DNA of 39,638 nt from Deltaproteobacteria bacterium YD0425bin50 (lineage in GTDB: Bacteria > Desulfobacterota > Desulfobacteria > Desulfobacterales > YD0425bin50): positions 1 to 39,638 of the forward strand of contig PDZT01000011.1 in assembly GCA_002753105.1 (NCBI GenBank), given 5' to 3'. Positions 3,536-17,106 of the stretch are shown piece after piece. Each line of letters opens with the position of its first letter. Position 1 is the first letter of the stretch. The notes beneath the pieces were generated by a model. It made no database searches, was not told the DNA's origin, and worked only from the letters and a program-made list of their open reading frames with translations. The position numbers were made by a program, and so were the translations under genes.

Positions 3536-3642
3536 TATAGACTTTCACATAAATAATTTCACGGCGTTATCGGTCGGAGATATACTAAAATGTATTATCT
3601 CCTCCCTCTATCCTTGTGAAATTAATTATCTGAAAGTCTATA
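3536..3642 (-). repeat. ~106 bp TA-flanked inverted-repeat element, copy 1
   Basis: The ends are complementary (TATAGACTTTCA at one end, TGAAAGTCTATA at the other, one mismatch) and the element is flanked by TA. Its reverse complement matches the copy at 8663-8768 almost base for base, including the internal core CGACCGATAACGCCG. It can fold over most of its length. It starts just after the mutL stop codon, so its hairpin may also act as a 3' end for that operon (inference). Confidence 0.85.
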
Positions 3643-5694: not shown

Positions 5695-7131
5695 TTAACT
5701 GACCGATGCTTCGATTTGAATATTGTATTTATCGATTTTAGACAGAAGCGTTGGCCTTGAGATACATAGAAGCTTTGCTGTTTGAGTTCTATTACCGTTG
5801 CAGATCATCAAAGATTCCCGTAACACCATTTTTGTAAAATGTTCTATTAACAAATCAAACAGATTCTCATCTTTGGATGTTCTTAACTGATTCCGAATCC
5901 ACTGAGTGATGATTTTTTCTGTATTCTCCTCATTGATTACATTGGGTTGTGACGAAGAATTCCGCTGATAATCTAATGCCTGTATAACATCATCTTGGTC
6001 TAATTGCCCGCCTCTGTTAAAAATAAGGGCTTTTTTTAAAAAATTGGCTAATTCTCTAACATTTCCGGGCCAGTCATATTGAGCTAGGGTTTTTAATCCA
6101 TTTGAAGTGATTCCATGATTTTGAATGTTCATTTCACGGGAATATTTTGATAAAAAATAATGGGTTAACAACGTTACATCTTCTTTTCGGTCTCTTAATG
6201 GCGGGAGTCGTAATGACACCACATTCAATCGATAATACAAATCTTCGCGAAAACTGCCTAGTGATACAGCCTCTTCTAAATTACGATTTGTGGCTGCAAT
6301 AATACGTACATCTACAGGTATAGGCAGACGACCGCCTAACCGTTCAATACTCCGTTCTTGCAACAAACGCAGAATTTTTGACTGGATATTAAAAGGCATA
6401 TCTCCGATTTCATCTAAAAAAATTGTTCCATGATGCGCTTGTTCTATTTTACCGATTCTGCGGTTTATTGCACCTGTAAATGCCCCTTTTTCATAACCAA
6501 ACAGCTCACTTTCAAGCAATGTATCTGGAATCGCTACACAGTTAATGACTAAAAAAGGTTTTTCAGAACGTTTGCTATGTTGGTATAAAGCTCTTGCTAC
6601 AAGTTCTTTACCCGTTCCCGATTCACCTTGAATGAGTACAGTGGCATCTGTTGGAGCTACGCGTCCAATGGATTTATAGACTTCCTGCATTAAAATACTG
6701 CGTCCAATCAGGGCATCGGGTGCGTCGGTTTCAGGCGATACATCCATTTCAACTTTTGACCGTCCAAAACGTGCAGCCTGTATGGCTTGATCAATTATCT
6801 TCAGCACTTCTGGAATATCAAACGGTTTTAGCAAATAATCAAATGCGCCTTTTTTAGTGGCCTCAATAGCAGTTTCTGTTGTTCCGAATGCCGTCATAAT
6901 AATAACAGGCAATTTCGAATCAATACGATGAATGATGTCAAATGCCTCAATGCCGTTTATCCCGGGAAGGCGAACATCTATAAACATCAGATCAACTCTA
7001 TTCTGTTTCACAAAATCAATTCCACTTTCAGCATTGGGTAAGCTATATACCGTATGTTTTTCAATTTTTAATATCTTTTCAAAACTCTGTCTCAGTTGCG
7101 GATCATCATCAACAATTAAAATAACAGCCAC
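5695..7131 (-). CDS. sigma54-dependent response regulator, NtrC/AtoC family
   Basis: This is a transcription activator with three domains in order. A receiver has phospho-acceptor Asp52 and conserved Lys102. An AAA+ ATPase has Walker A GESGTGKE at 169-176 and the sigma54-contacting GAFTGA loop at 216-221. A C-terminal Fis-type helix-turn-helix lies at about 443-475 (NRTQTAKLL...RPTLLSKI). The start is GTG, preceded by AAGGAG that overlaps the stop codon of the upstream kinase gene. The 12 bp gap marks a kinase-regulator operon. A sigma54 -24/-12 sequence in front of the divergent gene at 9015 is the obvious candidate target (inference). All key residues for ATP hydrolysis and sigma54 contact appear intact. 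Confidence 0.95.
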   Translation of the reverse strand: MAVILIVDDDPQLRQSFEKILKIEKHTVYSLPNAESGIDFVKQNRVDLMFIDVRLPGINGIEAFDIIHRIDSKLPVIIMTAFGTTETAIEATKKGAFDYLLKPFDIPEVLKIIDQAIQAARFGRSKVEMDVSPETDAPDALIGRSILMQEVYKSIGRVAPTDATVLIQGESGTGKELVARALYQHSKRSEKPFLVINCVAIPDTLLESELFGYEKGAFTGAINRRIGKIEQAHHGTIFLDEIGDMPFNIQSKILRLLQERSIERLGGRLPIPVDVRIIAATNRNLEEAVSLGSFREDLYYRLNVVSLRLPPLRDRKEDVTLLTHYFLSKYSREMNIQNHGITSNGLKTLAQYDWPGNVRELANFLKKALIFNRGGQLDQDDVIQALDYQRNSSSQPNVINEENTEKIITQWIRNQLRTSKDENLFDLLIEHFTKMVLRESLMICNGNRTQTAKLLCISRPTLLSKIDKYNIQIEASVS

Positions 7132-7143
7132 GTATTTTTCTCC

Positions 7144-8625
7144 TTAATCCTGATAAGGTAATTCAATCTGAAATGTTGCCCCTCGAAATGCATTAGACAT
7201 GACTTGAATTTTCCCGCCATGTTCTTCAATAATCCGTTTGGCAATACTTAAACCAAGACCGGTTCCTTCTTCTTTGCTGCTAAAAAAGGGATCAAATACT
7301 TTGGACATAATCGATTCAGGTATGCCCGGCCCAGTATCAATTACACGAATAATTGCAATTTTTTCTTTAGAATGCGGATCAATGAACTCTTCTTCATGGA
7401 TGTATATCGTGCCATGATCTCCCATAGCTTCACATGCATTGAGAATCAGGTTAACCAATACTTCCTTTAATTGTTCTGCATCAGCCATAATATTATCAAG
7501 GTTCTGTTTTCGTTCAACTCTAATATCTATTCCATAAGAATCAATGCGAAACTTCAAGAGTTGAAGTGTCATATCTACGACTTCCGAAGGGCTTATCCAT
7601 TGAAATTTTAATTTTGGCGGCCTGGAGAATTCAAGAAAATTTTGAACAATGGTATCAATATGGCGAATTTCTTCTGAAATAACTCCAAAATCTTCTTTTT
7701 GCATTGCATCCAGTTCCAAACTGCGCTGTAGAGAAAACAAACGCATCTTCACAGAGGTCAGAGGATTTCGAACACTATGAGCTAAACCAGCAGCCATTTT
7801 ACCTACAAGCGCAAGTTTTTCAGCTTGCATTAAATGTTCTCTGCTTTTTTCAAGTTTTGATTGTGTTTGAGTCATATCATCCATCAAATGATATACATAG
7901 TGGATTAATGCATTGACTTCATTACCAGAGGTGATTTCTTTTGTTGATGGGGAATAGGTTGCTATTGCAAGCCGTTTAATCGGTTCAAGAATTTGCCGGA
8001 TAAGAACATACGCGAGCAGCAGGCCAAGTATCAAACCTATTGGAATACCTGACCAAGCAAATAGCGTGAACAAATGAGCTGTGGTCTTATATTCATTTCG
8101 AATTTGAGATATCCGGGTTTCATGAATCGATTTATATTGCTGACATAAATCATAGATTTGAAAAAATCGATTCCGCACTTCCCAATGATGGGTTTTCCCT
8201 TCTTCATCATTGCCTTTCATATATAACCGTATGATTTGATCACGATTTGTTACATACTTGATATAGTTCGATTCAATATAATTGAGAAGCATTGAGGATG
8301 TGTCTTCTGTGCTTGTTCTCCGTGTAACGCCCATCAGATTCAAAAAATGTTGATGATGGTTATCTAATTCCTTGAGCCATTTTTCGTCTTTGGTCAGGTA
8401 ATAATAGGTTACAAATCCTTTTTGCATCACAAGTGCATTTTCCAGATTTTGTGCAGCCAATAATGAAGACACTGCACTGTCAATCATTGATGTGTATAAA
8501 TGCTGTGTACGATACGTGTACCAAAGTGTTACCGTTGATCCTAGAATATTGATAAAAACCAACAGTATTACTAGAAAAAGCAAATTCATTCGTAAGCTAG
8601 TACGTTTAAAAAAATTTAGTTTCAT
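7144..8625 (-). CDS. membrane sensor histidine kinase (partner of the NtrC-type regulator)
   Basis: The kinase has a first membrane segment at about 13-36, a predicted periplasmic helical sensor of roughly 150 residues, and a second membrane segment at about 185-210. A short linker/HAMP-like region follows, then a HisKA domain with phospho-accepting His283 (in LAHSVRNPLTS). The HATPase has its N-box around residues 391-400 (NLILNACEA), G1 DTGPGIP near 430 and G2 GTGLGLS near 454. The helical sensor with no Cys or PAS signature resembles four-helix-bundle or CHASE3-like input domains; the ligand is unknown. The ATG start lies 38 bp from the repeat element at 8663-8768, whose end contributes to a TATATAAT sequence that could be a -10 box. 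Confidence 0.93.
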   Translation of the reverse strand: MKLNFFKRTSLRMNLLFLVILLVFINILGSTVTLWYTYRTQHLYTSMIDSAVSSLLAAQNLENALVMQKGFVTYYYLTKDEKWLKELDNHHQHFLNLMGVTRRTSTEDTSSMLLNYIESNYIKYVTNRDQIIRLYMKGNDEEGKTHHWEVRNRFFQIYDLCQQYKSIHETRISQIRNEYKTTAHLFTLFAWSGIPIGLILGLLLAYVLIRQILEPIKRLAIATYSPSTKEITSGNEVNALIHYVYHLMDDMTQTQSKLEKSREHLMQAEKLALVGKMAAGLAHSVRNPLTSVKMRLFSLQRSLELDAMQKEDFGVISEEIRHIDTIVQNFLEFSRPPKLKFQWISPSEVVDMTLQLLKFRIDSYGIDIRVERKQNLDNIMADAEQLKEVLVNLILNACEAMGDHGTIYIHEEEFIDPHSKEKIAIIRVIDTGPGIPESIMSKVFDPFFSSKEEGTGLGLSIAKRIIEEHGGKIQVMSNAFRGATFQIELPYQD

Positions 8626-8662
8626 AAAATCAGCTACTCATTTTTTTTATCTCAGTTGATTA

Positions 8663-8768
8663 TATAGACTTTCAGATAATTCATTTCACAAGGCTAGAGG
8701 AGGAGATAATACATTTTAGTATATCTCCGACCGATAACGCCGTGAAATTATTTATCTGAAAGTCTATA
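8663..8768 (+). repeat. ~106 bp TA-flanked inverted-repeat element, copy 2
   Basis: This is a nearly identical, oppositely oriented partner of the element at 3536-3642. The ends TATAGACTTTCAGATAA and TTATCTGAAAGTCTATA are exact complements. The inside carries GGAGATAATACA...GTATATCTCC (a second hairpin) and the core CGACCGATAACGCCG. TA dinucleotides flank both sides. It sits in the divergent region between the kinase and the receiver-methyltransferase operon. Confidence 0.88.
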
Positions 8769-8869
8769 TATAGTGTGAGGCTATACCAAGTAAATATATT
8801 CGGTTCAATAGTCATTATGAATATTAGCCATACTTTGTCAAAATTCATTTTAAAAAAACTAAAATAAAA

Positions 8870-8888
8870 TTTTTACATATTGTAAAAA
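8870..8888. promoter_or_regulatory. candidate activator-binding palindrome
   Basis: TTTTTACA-TAT-TGTAAAAA is a perfect 8+3+8 inverted repeat located about 60 bp upstream of the sigma54 -24 box at 8949. That is a usual place for an enhancer site of an NtrC-type activator. Binding by the neighbouring regulator is inference; an AT-rich palindrome can also arise by chance. Confidence 0.4.
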
Positions 8889-8948
8889 AAATCGACATAT
8901 CTTGAATTAAACAACACGCTTCCTTTGTACCTCAGTGCCTTTTGTGTA

Positions 8949-8964
8949 TGGCATAAACATTGCC
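8949..8964 (+). promoter_or_regulatory. sigma54 (-24/-12) promoter
   Basis: TGGCATAAACATTGCC has GG and GC elements at the exact consensus distance (TGGCAC-N5-TTGC, one mismatch in the first box). It ends about 50 bp before the start codon at 9015 and is oriented toward the receiver-methyltransferase pair. A sigma54 activator gene with its kinase lies directly upstream. Confidence 0.65.
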
Positions 8965-9014
8965 TAAATTTTTCAAAAATGAGGTGATCTAAAAATTTAA
9001 GGATAGTTTTAAAT

Positions 9015-9407
9015 ATGAATCCTGTTATTTTGATTGCAGATCGAAATCCACATGTACGTGAATTTCTCAAAAGAGAGATTATGGTAGATGGATACCAAAT
9101 CTGTTTGGCCAAAAATTGTCGTGAAGTACTTAAAGCTGTATCCCATGAAAAACCAATCCGTTTAATCATTATTGATCCTGATATTCCGGGAGCAGATGAT
9201 TTTTTGATACTTAAAATGGTAAAAAATCGAATACCAGAACTTCCAATTATCATCCATTCCCATTTTACAGAATATGAAACCTATGTTAAAGGGTTACATC
9301 GAATGGTTTTTGTTGAAAAAAAAGGAAACAGTATTGAAGATCTAAAAACTGTTATTCATCAGATGTTACAACCTCCTATTGAAAGCATAGGTTTTTATCA
9401 CCAGTGA
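9015..9407 (+). CDS. single-domain receiver protein with atypical acidic pocket
   Basis: This 130-residue protein is one CheY-like receiver domain with phospho-acceptor Asp54 (IIIDPDIPG) and no output domain. The usual double-acid pair near the N-terminus (normally DD or DE) is reduced to Asp9-Arg10 within IADRNPHV, so metal binding and phosphorylation may be weakened. The usual switch Thr/Ser is probably the Ser in IIIHSHF, and a Lys occurs in FVEKKG. It lies behind a sigma54 promoter and overlaps the following methyltransferase gene by 4 bp (GTGA), so the two products are made together. It may pass a signal from the upstream kinase or act as a phosphorylation-independent adaptor. Confidence 0.85.
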   Translation: MNPVILIADRNPHVREFLKREIMVDGYQICLAKNCREVLKAVSHEKPIRLIIIDPDIPGADDFLILKMVKNRIPELPIIIHSHFTEYETYVKGLHRMVFVEKKGNSIEDLKTVIHQMLQPPIESIGFYHQ

Positions 9408-10177
9408 ACACCCAAAAAAAATGGCAACAACTCGCACCTGAATATATCATTGCTTTAAGCAAAAAAGACAAAGGGGATTATCTACGTTACAAGTTACTTA
9501 CGCCAAAACTCTTGCGTATTCTTGGAAATATTTCCAATCTTAACATTTTGGATATTGGGTGTGGGGATGGATATCTATCGAGGAAATTAGCTAAAAAAGG
9601 TGCTCATATTTATGCATTTGATTGGATAACGTCGTTTATTACATATGCAACAACCCAAGAACAAAACAAAAAGTTAACCACACAGTATTGTGTTGCAGAT
9701 GCGTTGCAATGTTTTCCGTATATCGATAGTTTTTTTGATATTGCTATAGCAAATATGGTGCTTAAAGATATGCCGATCATTGATAAAACAATTGCCGAGG
9801 CATATCGTGTGCTTAAGCATCAGGGAAAATTCATCGTCAGTATTCTGCATCCTTGCTTTTACATGAATGTGTCTCAATGGAAAGCAAGAAAATCATTAAG
9901 TCCTACCCATTCAACCTTGTCTTTTGATATGGTTGCGCCCTATATTTCTCCTTGCTCATTTTCAAAAACCGTGTCAGGAAGTAAAGAAGAAATTCAGCAT
10001 TTCCATCGTCCTATATCGGATTATATTAACGTGTTTTGTAAACATGGCTTCTTGATTTCTGGAATGTGGGAATTGTGCCTAAAAAAAGATATGTCGGTTT
10101 CTCAGAATTATTTTTATGCCACACGCATACCTCCGTTTCTCATTCTTCAGGGTATTAAAATCGGAAAATCTTCTTGA
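9404..10177 (+). CDS. class I SAM-dependent methyltransferase
   Basis: A Rossmann-fold methyltransferase of 257 residues. The SAM-binding loop is at about 48-56 (LDIGCGDGY), an acidic residue closes strand 2 (AFDW), and the motif IV region reads FDIAIANMVLKDMPIIDKTIAEAYRVLKHQGKFIVSILHP, as in Methyltransf_11 proteins. The final third has no recognised extra domain. The substrate is unknown; small-molecule targets are typical for this family. The start is GTG, overlapping the stop codon of the receiver gene, and no separate promoter is visible. Pairing with a receiver under sigma54 control is unusual and suggests a regulated modification step. Confidence 0.88.
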   Translation: MNTQKKWQQLAPEYIIALSKKDKGDYLRYKLLTPKLLRILGNISNLNILDIGCGDGYLSRKLAKKGAHIYAFDWITSFITYATTQEQNKKLTTQYCVADALQCFPYIDSFFDIAIANMVLKDMPIIDKTIAEAYRVLKHQGKFIVSILHPCFYMNVSQWKARKSLSPTHSTLSFDMVAPYISPCSFSKTVSGSKEEIQHFHRPISDYINVFCKHGFLISGMWELCLKKDMSVSQNYFYATRIPPFLILQGIKIGKSS

Positions 10178-10236: not shown

Positions 10237-10253
10237 TAACTTTCAACAAAATA

Positions 10254-10358
10254 TATAGTTTTTCAGAAAAGAATTTTGGCAAGGCAGCAGGGAGGAAGGT
10301 GTATACCTAATACATCGACGACCGATAACGCAGCAAAAAACTTTTCTGGAAAGCTATA
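10254..10358 (+). repeat. diverged member of the TA-flanked inverted-repeat family, copy 3
   Basis: This 105 bp element has the ends TATAGTTTTTCAGAAAAG and CTTTTCTGGAAAGCTATA and is flanked by TA. Its core CGACCGATAACGC is identical to copies 1 and 2, but most other positions differ. A central GTATACCTAATAC-like stem occupies the place of the inner hairpin of the other copies. It lies directly upstream of the chemosensory operon. Confidence 0.75.
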
Positions 10359-10390
10359 GTCTTTTTACTTTCTTTGATTTAAGGTTGTGC

Positions 10391-13300
10391 ATGGGATTTG
10401 AAAATGATCAGAACATCATCACTGATTTCATTGTTGAAACCAATGAACATTTAGATGATGTTGAAAAAACATTACTGCTCATGGAACAAACCATAGATAC
10501 CTCTGTTGAGGATGTTCCTGAAAACATAGCAGAAATTTTTCGTTTTATTCACTCCATTAAAGGCGCTGCCGGTTTTCTCAAATTTGAAAAAATTGAGAAG
10601 GTTTCACATCGAATGGAAGCGCTGTTTGATTTGATGCGTAATGGCAGGATTAGCCCTAGTCATGAAAATTTAGATGTCTTATTAACAGGCCTTGATAAAT
10701 TAAAACTCATGATGGAGGATGTTCATCGCAGTAATGAAGTCGATGTAGAAACTGTATTAGAGCAGTTAAACGGATTGATCAATACAGATTCCCACCCCAT
10801 AACTAAACCGGATATAATTCATCATGATAGTGCTGCTGAACCTAAAAAAACGATTATTCCTCAAGAAGATGCCTCCTTTCCTTTCATAAAAGATGATTAT
10901 TTTAAACTTGATGATGTATTGATTCAAAGTATTCCCTTTGAACATGATCATCTATATCTCATAAAATATAATACGCTCGAATTGGGTAAACGGAAACTGG
11001 ATATTTTATCCTTGATAAATACCATAATCACTACTGGCGCCATTGTTGACTATAATTTCGTGACAGAGGGTTTAGATAGTCTGTTTTGCATAGTGTACTC
11101 AACCATATTAGACAGTGATTTCATCCCCGACCTGTGTAAGATTGATAAAACGAATTTTATAGAACTGAATAAGGACAAATTAACTCAATATAAAGATAAA
11201 GAACAGCCGCTTCAGGATGAATCAAAAGCCAAACACAACGAGCAGCAACCCAAAGAAGAAAAGCAAACCATACATGTACATGTTGAAAAAGAACCTTATG
11301 AAGTTGTTGAACCTAAATCTATAGAACCAGTGCAAAAACAGGAAAAATTTTCAACGCCCGTTTCTCATGGATCACCAGAAAAATCAGAAACGATACGGAT
11401 TAAAGTTGACCTGATTGATCGTTTGTTGGCTTTGGCTGGAGAACTGGTTCTTGTTAGGAATCAGCAAAATCTTACTCTGGATACCCATGATGACGATGAT
11501 TCAGATTATGCTAGAATGACCCGAATGCTAGATAAGGTGACGACTGAACTTCAGGAAACGGTGATGCTGACCCGTATGCAGCCTATAGGGAATTTGTTTT
11601 CAAAACTGCCGCGTATCGTGCGAGATGTATCTAAAAAACTCAATAAAAAGATTGAAATTCATGAATTGGGCGGGGAAGTCGAAATGGACAAGAAAATTTT
11701 GGAATCACTGACCGACCCGCTGATTCATATTATCCGAAATTCCTGCGATCATGGCATTGAGCTTCCTGAAGAACGCATTATGCTGGATAAACCAGAAACC
11801 GGACAAATTATTGTTCAGGCTTTCCATGAAGCCGGGCAAATTCACATCAGAGTCATAGATGATGGCAAAGGAATTGATGTGAATAGGGTGAAACAGAAAG
11901 CCATTGAAAAAGATTTAAAAACTGAGGCTGAACTGGAGCAGATGACAATTAAAGATACTCTTTCGCTGATTCTGCTTCCCGGATTTTCTACGGCTGAAAA
12001 AATAACTGAAGTGTCTGGCCGTGGCGTTGGAATGGATGTAGTAAAAAGTTCAATCGAGCAGTTTGGAGGCGTTGTAGATATTGATTCGGTTTGGGGCCAA
12101 AGCACCACGATATATATTCGCCTGCCGCTGACACTCGCAATTATTCCGTGTTTAATCGTTCATTCAAAAAATAATGTATTTGCGATTCCACAGGTCAATG
12201 TTTCAGAAATTGTCCGGCTGTATAAAGATGAAGATGAATATGTTATTGAAAAAGTCGGAAATCAGGAAGTGTATCGCTTTCGAGATCAGCTTTTACCAAT
12301 TGTTCGGTTAAATGAACTGTTGATGTACCCGGAACCTTTTACAGAAAAGGTGAAAGATGAAATTATCAAAAAATTCGAAACAGATCATTTGAAAGCAAGG
12401 AATCCTGATGATCATGCAGATACCATGTTTACATTTATCGTTGTCAAAATGGCGGGACACTCTTTCGGACTTGTTGTGGATCAGGTCATTGGCATGGAAG
12501 AAATTGTTGTCAAACCGATGCATTCAAAATTAAAAACACTTGGCATTTATTCTGGAGCTACATTGATGGGAGATGGGCAGGTTGCTCTTATTCTGGATAT
12601 TGAAGGCATTGCCAAGCACGTTGGAATTCACTATTCCAGTATATTAGAAGACGTTCAGGCAGAGGCGGAAAAAAGGTATCGGTTTGAAGATATTCAACAA
12701 ATCATGTTGTTTAAAAGCGGAGAACATGAAACATTTGCGGTGCCATTAACATTAATTGATCGGATTGAACGATTTGAGGTTTCAAACATCAATAAAATCG
12801 GCAATAAAGACATGATCTCAATAAATGACGTACCAACGCTTGTGCTTCGATTAGATCAAGTGCTTGATGTTTCCCCAGTTAAACATAATAGTGAGATGAT
12901 GTTATTACTGCCGAAATTTATTAAAAAACCAGTGGGGATTTTAATGTCCGAAGTTGTAGATACGTGTGAAATATCCCATGAAGTCAATTTTGATACATAC
13001 TCGGAAGATGGTTTATTAGGCACATCCATTGTCAACAACCAGATCACCTTGTTTGTTGATATTTTCCGCATCGTAGAAAAGGCTCAGCCTGATTGGTTCT
13101 TAACAAGACAAACCAAGGATGTATCTTTTAAGGATGCTCGGCTGCTGGTTCTTGAAGATTCTGCTTTTTTCAGGCAACTCATTACTAAATACCTTGAATC
13201 TGATGGCTATAGAGTGGATGTAGCCAAAGACGGTTCTGAAGGGTTGAAACTGTTTAAGAAAAATTCTTATCATTTGATTATTTCTGACATTGAAATGCCT

Positions 13301-13516
13301 GTCATGAATGGATGGAAGTTTATTGAACATGTAAGAACAATGGATAAAAATATTCCTGCATTGGCGCTGACATCTTTATATTCAGAAAAAGACAGAACCA
13401 AATCTCTTGAAGCTGGGTTTAATAGTTTTTATAGAAAAATTGATCGGGAAGACCTCCTGAAAGGAGTTTATTTGACTCTAATGAAATCAAAACAAACGGA
13501 GTTAACCTTATCTTGA
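10391..13516 (+). CDS. cheA: hybrid chemotaxis-type histidine kinase CheA (Hpt-HATPase-CheW-CheW-receiver)
   Basis: A signalling kinase of a chemosensory array. Domains in order are: an Hpt domain with phospho-His54 (IHSIKGAAGFL); a variable 140-330 region with a possible P2-like fold and an acidic/Lys-rich linker; the dimerisation helix pair (IRIKVDLIDRLLALAGELV); an HATPase with HIIRNSCDHGIE, DDGKGID and GRGVGMDVV; a CheW-like domain; a second, more divergent CheW-like domain (about 755-905); and a C-terminal receiver with Asp966. The ATG at 10391 is preferred because AAGG precedes it at good spacing; the TTG six bases earlier has none. The attached receiver may act as a phosphate sink or replace a separate CheY. 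cheW overlaps its stop codon by 4 bp. Confidence 0.95.
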   Translation: MGFENDQNIITDFIVETNEHLDDVEKTLLLMEQTIDTSVEDVPENIAEIFRFIHSIKGAAGFLKFEKIEKVSHRMEALFDLMRNGRISPSHENLDVLLTGLDKLKLMMEDVHRSNEVDVETVLEQLNGLINTDSHPITKPDIIHHDSAAEPKKTIIPQEDASFPFIKDDYFKLDDVLIQSIPFEHDHLYLIKYNTLELGKRKLDILSLINTIITTGAIVDYNFVTEGLDSLFCIVYSTILDSDFIPDLCKIDKTNFIELNKDKLTQYKDKEQPLQDESKAKHNEQQPKEEKQTIHVHVEKEPYEVVEPKSIEPVQKQEKFSTPVSHGSPEKSETIRIKVDLIDRLLALAGELVLVRNQQNLTLDTHDDDDSDYARMTRMLDKVTTELQETVMLTRMQPIGNLFSKLPRIVRDVSKKLNKKIEIHELGGEVEMDKKILESLTDPLIHIIRNSCDHGIELPEERIMLDKPETGQIIVQAFHEAGQIHIRVIDDGKGIDVNRVKQKAIEKDLKTEAELEQMTIKDTLSLILLPGFSTAEKITEVSGRGVGMDVVKSSIEQFGGVVDIDSVWGQSTTIYIRLPLTLAIIPCLIVHSKNNVFAIPQVNVSEIVRLYKDEDEYVIEKVGNQEVYRFRDQLLPIVRLNELLMYPEPFTEKVKDEIIKKFETDHLKARNPDDHADTMFTFIVVKMAGHSFGLVVDQVIGMEEIVVKPMHSKLKTLGIYSGATLMGDGQVALILDIEGIAKHVGIHYSSILEDVQAEAEKRYRFEDIQQIMLFKSGEHETFAVPLTLIDRIERFEVSNINKIGNKDMISINDVPTLVLRLDQVLDVSPVKHNSEMMLLLPKFIKKPVGILMSEVVDTCEISHEVNFDTYSEDGLLGTSIVNNQITLFVDIFRIVEKAQPDWFLTRQTKDVSFKDARLLVLEDSAFFRQLITKYLESDGYRVDVAKDGSEGLKLFKKNSYHLIISDIEMPVMNGWKFIEHVRTMDKNIPALALTSLYSEKDRTKSLEAGFNSFYRKIDREDLLKGVYLTLMKSKQTELTLS

Positions 13517-14004
13517 CAGATCCCTCTGGAAAAAAAGAAATCGTTTTGGAGCAATACTGCACGTTCTGGATAGCAGAACGTCTGTTTGGGGTAAATATTA
13601 AGGATGTGAATGAAATTACAGAAGAATTTAAAATTACCCCAATTTATCATGCGCCGAAGGAAATTCTTGGCTATGTGAACATCAGGGGACAAATCTATCT
13701 TGTTATTGATACAAGAGTTGTATTAAGGTTTGACCAAAAATCACCGGATGAAAAAAGCCGGATTATTCTTTTTAAGCAATCTGTAGGAGAATATTTCGGT
13801 ATCATGGTTGACTGCATAGATGGTGTTGTAAATATTAATGAAAGAGACATTGAAAATAGGCGAAAGCGGGATACGGGGTCTCCTGATGGTAATGAAAAAA
13901 GAGTATCAATAAAAAATTTAGAAAAAGGGGTTTGCCGCATGGAAAATTTTCTTATGGTGGCATTAAACGCAGGCAGTTTTTTAGGTTCAATTAAACTCAA
14001 TTAA
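13513..14004 (+). CDS. cheW: CheW coupling protein
   Basis: A 163-residue single CheW domain that should bridge chemoreceptors and CheA. It opens with the typical pattern CTFWIAERLFGVNIKDVNEI, continues with the receptor-binding loop YHAPKEILGYVNIRGQIYLVIDTR, and has FGIMVDCIDGVVNI in the second subdomain. The start is TTG, overlapping the TGA stop of cheA as TTGA, which implies translational coupling. A GGAG about 10 bases upstream can serve as ribosome-binding site. Length is typical for CheW. It is followed 20 bp later by the binding-protein gene. Confidence 0.93.
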   Translation: MTDPSGKKEIVLEQYCTFWIAERLFGVNIKDVNEITEEFKITPIYHAPKEILGYVNIRGQIYLVIDTRVVLRFDQKSPDEKSRIILFKQSVGEYFGIMVDCIDGVVNINERDIENRRKRDTGSPDGNEKRVSIKNLEKGVCRMENFLMVALNAGSFLGSIKLN

Positions 14005-14024
14005 CTAACACAGGAGGATGTTTT

Positions 14025-14816
14025 ATGAAAAAAACACTAAGTTTTATTGGGATGATTTTATTACTGACATGTAATTTGGGAATTGCAGAAGAAATTACAA
14101 TTGTAGGAACAGGAAGCGGTATGTCGTTGCTTAAATCTTTAGGAGAAGCATTTACGGCAAAAAATCCTGATGTTCGTATTATTGTACCAGATAGTATCGG
14201 CTCTGGAGGCGGAATTAAAGCAGTGGGTAATGATGAAAATGTTCTTGGAAGAGTAGGCAGGATGATTAAAGAAAAAGAAAAAAGTTTGGGATTAACCTAT
14301 TTACCCATTTTTAAGATGCCCATTGTGTTTTTTGTAAATAAAAAAGTGGGCATTAAAGACCTTTCTACTGAACAAATATGCGGCATGTATAGTGGAAAAA
14401 TTGAAAAATGGAGCGATGTAGGTGGCCCAACAGGTAATAAAATCAGACTGATCAGAAGAGAAGACGGGGACAGTTCGCTTCAGGTGTTACAAGATTCTTT
14501 TCCGGGGTTTAAAGCAATTACCATATCAGAAAAATCCAAAACAACCTATAAAGACCCTGAAACACTTGAAGCTGCTCAGAATATTGATGATACCATTGCT
14601 TTTGGAACCAATATTGAAGCCAAACAATACAATGTAGATATTATTTCGATAAATGGTAAAAAGGCTTCAGATGAGGATTATCCTTATTTAGGCGAGTTGG
14701 CATTGGTATTCAAAGAAAAAAATAAAACCGGAAATATTCAAAAATTTATTGAGTTTTGCACCTCAACAGACGCGCATGAAGTCATTAAAAAGGGAGGCGG
14801 ACTTCCTTTGAAGTAA
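14025..14816 (+). CDS. periplasmic PstS-like substrate-binding protein
   Basis: A 263-residue secreted protein with a clear signal peptide (residues 1-20, likely cleaved after GIA) and an AGGAGG ribosome-binding site. It belongs to the phosphate-binding-protein-like fold (PBP_like/PstS relatives), shown by TIVGTGSGMSLLKSLGEAF, the glycine-rich SIGSGGGIKAV anion-binding turn and the hallmark LSTEQICGMYSGKIEKWSDVGG. No ABC permease or ATPase gene is nearby. It lies between cheW and a chemoreceptor gene, which suggests it delivers a ligand (phosphate or another oxyanion) to the receptor rather than to a transporter. The ligand is inferred from the family only. Confidence 0.88.
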   Translation: MKKTLSFIGMILLLTCNLGIAEEITIVGTGSGMSLLKSLGEAFTAKNPDVRIIVPDSIGSGGGIKAVGNDENVLGRVGRMIKEKEKSLGLTYLPIFKMPIVFFVNKKVGIKDLSTEQICGMYSGKIEKWSDVGGPTGNKIRLIRREDGDSSLQVLQDSFPGFKAITISEKSKTTYKDPETLEAAQNIDDTIAFGTNIEAKQYNVDIISINGKKASDEDYPYLGELALVFKEKNKTGNIQKFIEFCTSTDAHEVIKKGGGLPLK

Positions 14817-14825
14817 TTGAGAAAC

Positions 14826-14852
14826 AATGAGCAGCTCAACTGGCTGCTCATT
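14826..14852 (+). terminator. intergenic hairpin, weak terminator or attenuator
   Basis: AATGAGCAGC (14826-14835) pairs perfectly with GCTGCTCATT (14843-14852) around a 7-base loop. Only a short T run follows. It starts 9 bases after the binding-protein stop codon and may lower expression of the downstream receptor or stabilise the upstream mRNA. Confidence 0.45.
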
Positions 14853-14916
14853 TCAGCCACTTATTTATAATTCGGGTAGTCTTTTACAGCTCATCTTTTA
14901 CAATTATGGAGGCACT

Positions 14917-17106
14917 ATGCCAAAAAAATTTAGAAGCATAAAATACAAAATACTTCTAAATTTTGTATTTGCTGTTACAGTATTATATATAGCAACTACT
15001 GTAATCCTAAATATAAAATTATCAGCACGCATAACAGAACAATCGAACAATTTAACGGATGACTTAAAAGAACGAAAAATCAAAGACCTTTTGGGGTATA
15101 ACAAACTGATTGAATCACGTATTGATCAGATTAAGTCTGACGTTCGTAATGCAGTTAAGAATCTTGCTGATGGAGACGGTGTATTTCAAAATATTAAGTC
15201 ACAACAACTCACGCATCTTGAAAAAAGGCTTGAAAATAGCTGCAAGCTTGCCTACATGGATTTTTGTATCATATATGACTTCAAAGGAAATTTACAATCG
15301 TCATACCCCAAAGATGTTGATCCTTTTTACTCTTTAAACCTGTTTAAACGATTGAATTGCACAGACATTTTAACGAAAGTGACGAGTGGTTCAATTCCTC
15401 AAGAATCGGCTGCATTTGATGTCGTGTTAAAACTGGATTCTGATTTTTTAAATGCTGTTCATTTAACATCGAAAGATATTTTATTAAAAGGCTGCATTGC
15501 GGTATTATCAACTCATATGATTATGGATGATTTTGGAGAGCCTTATGCTTTTTCTATTATGGCAAAAATTTTAAACAAATATAATGATCCGCTGAAGGAT
15601 ATCCACCTTAAAACGGGTATCCAAAATATTATTTACTTAGATACTGTTCCGATTGCCTATGGCGGATTTAACATCAAAGAAGATATAAAGCCATTGATGA
15701 TGTTAAGTGAGCATTTACCAGAAGTGTATGCCAAAAAATTCTGTTCCCATGTAGTCAACTTAAATAATCAGAATTATCTCAGTGTATATACGAACTTAAA
15801 TGATTTTAAAGGCGAATCAATCGGTGCAATTTTTACGGGTATGCCTGAAGAACACATTTTAAAAATTCAACAAAGCATGATTGAGTATGGAAATAAAACC
15901 AAAGCTGAAATTTTTTGGTGGCTGATGCTATTATGTTTTATTTCAGTGATCTGTTTTATTTTTATTGGCTCTGTTATAGCGACAAAAGTGACTAATCCAA
16001 TTAACGAGGTCGTCAAAATATCCGGACTTGTTGCTAATGGCGACATTTCCAAAAGACTTGAAATTACGAGTGATGATGAAATTGCTGAAATGTCAAAAGC
16101 ATTAAATCATACATTTCATGATCTGTCTGGTATGTTGAGCAGGGTAAAAGATATCGCTCAAGTACTTGTCAATTCATCAGATGAACTTTCTACAGTATCA
16201 GCACAACTTACGACAACTTCGAGTGAGATGTCCATTCAGTCTGAAAATGTTGCAAATTCCACTAAAGAAATGGCAGAAACAATTAGCACGGTTGCGACCT
16301 TTGCTGAAAAAATAAATTCAACAACCGCTAGTGTTTCCATTACAGCCGACGAGATGGCAGTAAATATGAATTCTGTGGCAAGTTCAATTGAAGAAATGTC
16401 AGTAGCCATTCAGAATATTGGTCAGAATTCCTATGAGGGCTTTAAAATTTCTTCTGATGCGATGGATTTGGCGAAATCTGCCAATGAAGTTATGTTAACC
16501 CTTGGTAAAGTCGCGAAAGAAATCGGAAAAGTAACAGAATTGATTAAACGCATTGCAGATAAAACAGACCTGTTAGCCTTAAATGCAACGATTGAAGCGG
16601 CATCTGCAGGTGAGGCGGGTAAAGGTTTTGCTGTGGTTGCCAATGAAATTAAACAACTGGCAAGCAAATCCGCTAAGGAAGCGGACAACATTGCAGAAAG
16701 AATCAAAGGCGTTCAGGTTAATGCAGATAATGCGATTAATGTCTTTAGTAACGTGGCTGCTATCATTTCAAAACTCAATGAATCTGCAGAATTTATTAAC
16801 AAAGCAGTTGCAGAACAAACCAATTCAGTAAACGATGTTTCAAAAAATATTCAGGAAACCAATACAGGTGTTGTTGATATTGCAAAATCCGTAACAGAAG
16901 TAGCGAATGGTATCAATGACGTTTCAAAAAATATCGTAAAAACTGCAGAAGTAACCAATATTGTGTCAGAAAATATTCAGGGTGTTAAGCTATCTGCTGC
17001 AGAAACCAACAGCGGTGCTGAACAGGTGAATATATATGCACGGGAATTGGCAAAAATTGCAGTAGAACTTCAAACCATGTTGAAAAAATTTACGTTAGCG
17101 AGTTAA
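14917..17106 (+). CDS. methyl-accepting chemotaxis protein (transmembrane chemoreceptor)
   Basis: A 729-residue receptor: cytoplasmic tip, TM1 at about 12-31, a periplasmic sensor of roughly 295 residues (the size of a double-Cache domain), TM2 at about 332-355, HAMP, then a long coiled-coil signalling domain. The conserved CheA/CheW-binding hairpin reads DKTDLLALNATIEAASAGEAGKGFAVVANEIKQLA around residues 548-582. The ATG at 14917 follows GGAGG by 5 bases. An earlier in-frame ATG at 14827 starts inside the hairpin and is rejected. There is no C-terminal pentapeptide tether, and no cheR or cheB is seen nearby. Its partner is probably the binding protein encoded just upstream. Confidence 0.94.
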   Translation: MPKKFRSIKYKILLNFVFAVTVLYIATTVILNIKLSARITEQSNNLTDDLKERKIKDLLGYNKLIESRIDQIKSDVRNAVKNLADGDGVFQNIKSQQLTHLEKRLENSCKLAYMDFCIIYDFKGNLQSSYPKDVDPFYSLNLFKRLNCTDILTKVTSGSIPQESAAFDVVLKLDSDFLNAVHLTSKDILLKGCIAVLSTHMIMDDFGEPYAFSIMAKILNKYNDPLKDIHLKTGIQNIIYLDTVPIAYGGFNIKEDIKPLMMLSEHLPEVYAKKFCSHVVNLNNQNYLSVYTNLNDFKGESIGAIFTGMPEEHILKIQQSMIEYGNKTKAEIFWWLMLLCFISVICFIFIGSVIATKVTNPINEVVKISGLVANGDISKRLEITSDDEIAEMSKALNHTFHDLSGMLSRVKDIAQVLVNSSDELSTVSAQLTTTSSEMSIQSENVANSTKEMAETISTVATFAEKINSTTASVSITADEMAVNMNSVASSIEEMSVAIQNIGQNSYEGFKISSDAMDLAKSANEVMLTLGKVAKEIGKVTELIKRIADKTDLLALNATIEAASAGEAGKGFAVVANEIKQLASKSAKEADNIAERIKGVQVNADNAINVFSNVAAIISKLNESAEFINKAVAEQTNSVNDVSKNIQETNTGVVDIAKSVTEVANGINDVSKNIVKTAEVTNIVSENIQGVKLSAAETNSGAEQVNIYARELAKIAVELQTMLKKFTLAS

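Follow-up and report, generated by a model that had tools for sequence, protein, structure and literature searches.

Does the kinase-regulator operon of this locus control the receiver gene that diverges from it and, if so, is this control local? The window, by which we mean the whole 39,638-nucleotide stretch, encodes on its minus strand an NtrC-type enhancer-binding response regulator (5695..7131; receiver, AAA+ domain with GAFTGA and Fis-type HTH, matched in Pfam as Sigma54_activat and HTH_8 for the latter two) and a membrane sensor histidine kinase (7144..8625; Pfam HisKA and HATPase_c), its likely cognate partner by adjacency. The plus strand encodes a single-domain receiver of a distinct family (9015..9407; ILIADRNPHVR...DPDLPD...VEK) and a class I SAM methyltransferase (9404..10177), whose reading frame starts before the receiver stop; this overlap makes cotranscription of the two likely. 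The original prediction joined these genes into a local signal path, in which the pair switches on a degenerate receiver and a methyltransferase. Its landmarks are where it placed them. The divergent operon has the Pfam domains of a membrane kinase and a complete sigma54 activator. A -24/-12 element with correct GG-N10-GC spacing, TGGCATAAACATTGCC (8949..8964, plus strand), lies 50 bases 5' of the receiver ATG at 9015, and a perfect palindrome, TTTTTACA-TAT-TGTAAAAA (8870..8888, plus strand), lies 60 bases 5' of the -24 element. The palindrome, an exact 19-mer present as a single copy in its own genome, supplies the core of a longer putative activator site, TTTACA-N3-TGTAAA-N6-YGACA (8872..8897, plus strand). 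An Rfam scan of the window returned two tRNAs and nothing else.

In an AT-rich intergenic region, a palindrome of that composition and a sigma54-like match could coincide by chance, with the receiver served by a sigma70 promoter. Against the sigma54 -24/-12 consensus, TGGCAC-N5-TTGCW, the window promoter scores 9/11; the window holds two matches of at least 9/11, and 60 first-order Markov sequences of the same length hold a mean of 5.0. By itself the element is therefore not above chance, and it is the comparative evidence that makes the match convincing. TTTACA-N3-TGTAAA has a single match in the window, while the 60 Markov sequences have none. Between 8600 and 9100 the number of sigma70-like matches equals the shuffle expectation, and the only strong one (TTGACA-16-CATAAT, 11/12; 8814..8841, minus strand) points toward the kinase and is a candidate promoter of the kinase-regulator operon. 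A minus-strand sigma54 promoter for that operon was rejected, as its best match (7/11) is the reverse of the same element. Because the plus strand of 8600-9100 yielded no sigma70-like site, and because site and promoter are conserved across many families, we regard a chance origin as highly improbable.

Conservation upstream of orthologous receiver genes had been set in advance as the test that could refute the sigma54 promoter, and both the motif and the -24/-12 element are conserved there. Close relatives of the receiver in the 58 genomes of the order (36-53% identity at E<1e-18) stand apart from generic receivers (E 1e-7 to 1e-10) and have ILIADRNPHVR, DPDLPD and VEK in common; with the receiver as query, plasmids gave 0 matches. 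The aligned upstream regions show TTTTACA-N3-TGTAAA, then YGACA at a fixed distance, and TGGCAY-N5-TTGC downstream. For an independent test in named genomes outside the motif definition, we started from 72 loci, removed 11 that overlapped the training set and dropped 4 of the remaining 61 that had less than 300 bp upstream. Allowing up to three site mismatches within 1500 bp, we found site plus -24/-12 element upstream of the receiver in 38 of 57 loci, compared with 55 of 2025 control windows and 0 of 1440 shuffles; the control-window matches are probably in part genuine sites of neighbouring operons. The other 19 of the 57 receiver genes have no site and promoter inside 1500 bp, which counts against the explanation that we favour. 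In several loci other genes stand ahead of the receiver, and site and promoter then precede one of these. The genome itself carries a gene for sigma54 (RpoN), and the GG-N10-GC element, conserved as it is at orthologous genes, has the marks of a sigma54 promoter.

The site is not confined to receiver genes. At up to one mismatch it occurs 116 times in the 58 genomes, against 4 occurrences of the reversed pattern, and is found in 36 of them. This set was read in part; among 75 distinct sites from fetched loci, 63 have a -24/-12 element scoring at least 9/11 downstream. Seven matches at up to one mismatch fall in the window's own genome, where it also stands in front of several other operons. 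The purely local circuit of the original prediction was rejected on this ground.

We then asked which protein might act at the site. The neighbouring regulator has the domains (receiver, AAA+ with GAFTGA, Fis-type HTH) that define sigma54-dependent two-component enhancer-binding proteins. Its best NCBIfam match is NtrC (TIGR01818), which it resembles in domain order and AAA+ core; at 493.6 bits against a cut-off of 558.6, it is not an NtrC equivalog. The sensor region of the kinase gave no clue to the signal, its 4HB_MCP-like match in Pfam being weak and below cut-off (26.0 bits against 27). Kinase orthologs near the regulator are 45-58% identical over their full length, and kinase and regulator (45-75% identical) lie near the receiver in many loci. 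The proposal that the kinase-regulator pair, the sigma54 promoter and the palindromic site belong together stands as far as recurrence goes, since all of them recur across the order; binding of the site by the regulator is its predicted part.

That prediction draws on co-occurrence. A regulator ortholog (E<=1e-120) is encoded in 35 of the 58 genomes, exactly one in each; 34 genomes have both regulator and site, 1 the regulator only, 2 the site only and 21 neither (Fisher p 1.6e-12, uncorrected for phylogeny). The exceptions are G051, with the regulator only, and G006 (one 1-mismatch hit) and G018 (85% complete), with the site only. Across 395 genomes of the phylum, with a cut-off of E<=1e-150, the corresponding numbers are 59, 15, 22 and 299 (Fisher p 2e-37, again uncorrected for phylogeny), and the association holds within 13 families picked as mixed by reading the tables (stratified p 2.7e-4). 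Two groups in the phylum speak against the link: the 15 of 74 regulator genomes that have no site and the 22 site genomes without a close ortholog, several of which have one 1-mismatch hit. Regulator and site are also physically linked, with a site no more than 700 bp downstream of the regulator gene at 37 of 75 distinct regulator loci and 0 in control stretches inside the genes. Regulators at least 53% identical to that of the window carry SRPTL or TRPTL as HTH signature; relatives of about 48% identity from site-free genomes (L171, L172) carry NRSTL or SRNTL. The helix alone does not decide, since in family f101 the regulator is present in 5 genomes, with the SRPTL helix in the four read, and the site in only 1.

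Alternatively, the site could belong to a different activator that is co-inherited with the kinase-regulator pair. From co-occurrence alone one cannot tell which protein binds, and other sigma54 activators, seen as partial response-regulator matches of 33-40%, lie near some of the operons. However, the adjacency of site and regulator gene in 37 of 75 loci, the single regulator ortholog per genome and the persistence of the association within families argue against this, and we think it unlikely. Because the site tracks the presence of the regulator and sits close downstream of its gene, it very probably marks a regulon of that regulator rather than a local pair, with the gene pair of the window as one small branch.

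What does this regulon contain? Forty of the fetched loci were chosen for holding a site, so the following tallies describe site-bearing loci and not an unbiased sample. The 63 operons with site and promoter include a Cache kinase in 30 and a DASS or TauE permease in 21, and 48 of them have at least one core gene. Universal stress (single or double), CBS, acyl-CoA synthetase-GNAT and receiver-CBS proteins are found in 6 operons each. DASSa or DASSb occurs in 15 of the 63, and PF00939 was confirmed on all three proteins tested; DASS (PF00939) genes behind the site are what a sulfate-uptake regulon should show, here by family membership only. Pfam further backs the targets with PF01925, PF00582, PF00571, ATP-grasp/Succ_CoA_lig and PPDK_N; dCache_1 scores below cut-off on the own-genome kinase. 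In the window's own genome, the genes behind sites are TauE-PPDK-like (L118), a Cache kinase with a receiver (L119) and TauE-DUF4881 (L120), and behind a weaker site (L123) a Cache kinase, receivers and a formate/nitrite-transporter fusion; behind these own-genome sites we saw TauE and no DASS gene. The fusion joins a receiver to a formate/nitrite-transporter domain (PF00072 and PF01226; L123 6076-7347, contig C500), and its operon lies behind a 1-mismatch site with an 8/11 promoter match. In Desulfosarcina alkanivorans (L226, site at 10515) and D. widdelii (L228), site and promoter stand directly before a Cache kinase-receiver-DASS-receiver/CBS operon; likened by gene content, this is the cluster type reported as Desulfosarcina sulfate-uptake genes. 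PBP-like genes also lie behind the site in some relatives (L028, L035, L043).

The methyltransferase has no part in this pattern. The original prediction had treated receiver and methyltransferase as a pair; as a conserved module this pairing is rejected, given that no relative of the methyltransferase at E<=1e-12 is found in the other 57 genomes (0/57) and none in the 72 receiver loci (0/72). No NCBIfam equivalog matched it above cut-off. In relatives, a Cache-type kinase and then single receivers, and not a methyltransferase, are usually encoded downstream of the receiver. The methyltransferase of the window is best seen as a lineage-specific, private passenger of the promoter in its own genome. 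The receiver itself (PF00072, 43.1 bits against a cut-off of 30.2) had been called degenerate. In an alignment of 22 of 32 receiver sequences, D54 never varies, conservation of D9 and K102 reaches at least 90%, and the second position of the acidic pair holds R10. The receiver therefore appears only partly degenerate: the acidic pair is altered, and the phosphorylation site, the predicted phospho-acceptor Asp (D54), is kept. A small receiver without an output domain, often first in its operon, could serve as a phosphate sink or connector.

Site and promoter have a typical geometry. The distance from TGTAAA to TGG is 102-111 bp in 93 of 127 distinct site-promoter pairs. Of 118 long promoters, 44 have a box resembling the IHF consensus (up to one mismatch), where 17.7 would be expected; 34 of these boxes start 37-41 bp before the -24 element, and 40 of the 44 share one orientation. 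In the window the -24/-12 element follows the TGTAAA half-site after 62 bp, an unusual spacing that, like the 9/11 score of the element, counts against the favoured explanation, and no IHF-like box was found in this promoter, the best candidate having three mismatches. The other perfect sites of the same genome have spacings of 64, 87 and 111. The window promoter looks like a shortened version of the usual layout of about 105 bp, without the IHF-like box. Some sites match the extended motif whichever strand is read, the palindrome being flanked on either side by a YGACA-like arm (L163 9312-9348, L167 16504-16540, L169 7880-7916, L228 10341-10377), which suggests that the activator site could serve both directions.

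Taken together, sequence comparison makes it very likely that we are dealing with canonical sigma54 activation by a two-component enhancer-binding protein with a scattered regulon that includes the window promoter. Motif, spacing, recurrence, co-occurrence and physical linkage were computed; binding, the direction of regulation, phosphotransfer and the signal are what we infer. A signal would be sensed by the kinase (7144-8625), which would phosphorylate the neighbouring regulator (5695-7131). The activated regulator would assemble on TTTACA-N3-TGTAAA-N6-YGACA (8872-8897) and, by DNA looping, drive sigma54 RNA polymerase to form an open complex at 8949-8964; the receiver gene would thereby be switched on, as would, via read-through and the overlap, the methyltransferase. 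The usual distance between site and promoter is about 105 bp, and DNA bending may come from the IHF-like box positioned between them. In relatives the same regulator would control scattered operons for Cache-domain kinases, single receivers, receiver-CBS proteins, DASS and TauE/SafE anion permeases, universal stress proteins, CBS proteins and ADP-forming acyl-CoA synthetases. From these targets one might guess that the kinase responds to sulfate or energy status. Tentatively, the pair might even act throughout Desulfobacterota as a general switch for energy-stress genes and for the uptake of sulfate and sulfur anions. It would then be the DNA-binding factor that the DASS/Cache-kinase clusters have lacked, and the ADRN-type receiver would be a dedicated feedback modulator of phosphoryl flow made by the regulon itself.

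Finally, we asked if the system is already known under another name. The regulon might be that of Desulfovibrio vulgaris DVU0539/DVU0946 in another order, in which case regulator and site would be essentially known. As described (PMC3333781; PMC4641369; PMC10102598), these are likewise two-component sigma54 activators of sulfate reducers, with universal stress proteins and anion-permease families among their targets and one kinase-regulator pair divergent from a target operon. Specifically, the DVU0540-DVU0539 kinase-regulator pair is described as divergent from a universal stress/PSE-transporter operon (PMC10102598), both regulators as targeting transporter operons, with orthologs and motif reported conserved in Desulfatibacillum alkenivorans (PMC3333781), and TSUP (TauE) or PSE transporters as present in nine sigma54 operons (PMC4641369). 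On the other side, the targets named in the text are PSE-transporter and lactate operons, whereas here they are DASS/Cache-kinase/CBS/TauE operons; the main text of PMC4641369 has 0 occurrences of DASS, and the f101 regulator orthologs mostly lack the site. We take this identity seriously without favouring it. NmpRSTU of Myxococcus xanthus, as its description goes (PMC11841059), is alike in having an NtrC-like regulator, a multi-component kinase/receiver system, a palindrome upstream of sigma54 promoters and CBS and universal stress proteins in its regulon; that regulon is oxygen-related, and its site is GCGCA-N5-TGCGC, in pairs mostly 14-15 bp apart, in contrast to the TTTACA-N3-TGTAAA found here. 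The DASS cluster of Desulfosarcina variabilis, compared as a cluster type and not as a locus, is described with two-component systems, N-terminal cache kinases and CBS proteins (PMC11887813). There a 2025 proteogenomic study assigned DASS clusters, by proposal, to kinases and WalR-type regulators, unlike the sigma54 regulator considered here; in its main text NtrC and enhancer have 0 occurrences and sigma has one, in another context (PMC11887813). A 2018 transporter survey describes high-affinity transport as regulated, with no regulator named in the text consulted (PMC5840216). In the text of open-licence PMC papers we found no published description of the site or of a sigma54 regulator for DASS clusters, and the site letters as a query brought up no relevant sulfate-reducer paper among the matches listed. 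The mechanism is ordinary; no account of the regulon, its site or its set of targets turned up in open-licence PMC, and the main threat to their novelty is identity with DVU0539/DVU0946. With a regulator that is single-copy per genome in the order and a defined 26-bp site ahead of such clusters, the on/off control of sulfate uptake in sulfate reducers becomes testable, and site plus promoter form a signature usable on metagenomes.

Two further features of the window deserve mention. A dispersed hairpin with the core GACCGATAACGC lies on both flanks of the receiver-methyltransferase pair, at 8661-8770 and about 10247-10356 (cores 8729-8740 and 10320-10331), and again at 3564-3575 on the minus strand. 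It had no match in Rfam. The core has 64 exact copies in its own genome, against 0 for the reversed core, and CGACCGATAACGC is patchily distributed over 15 of the 58 genomes, with up to 117 copies in G049; the hairpin is probably a mobile or REP-like element. Directly next, at 10385-17106, lie genes for a CheA-receiver fusion, CheW, a solute-binding-protein-like product and a chemoreceptor.
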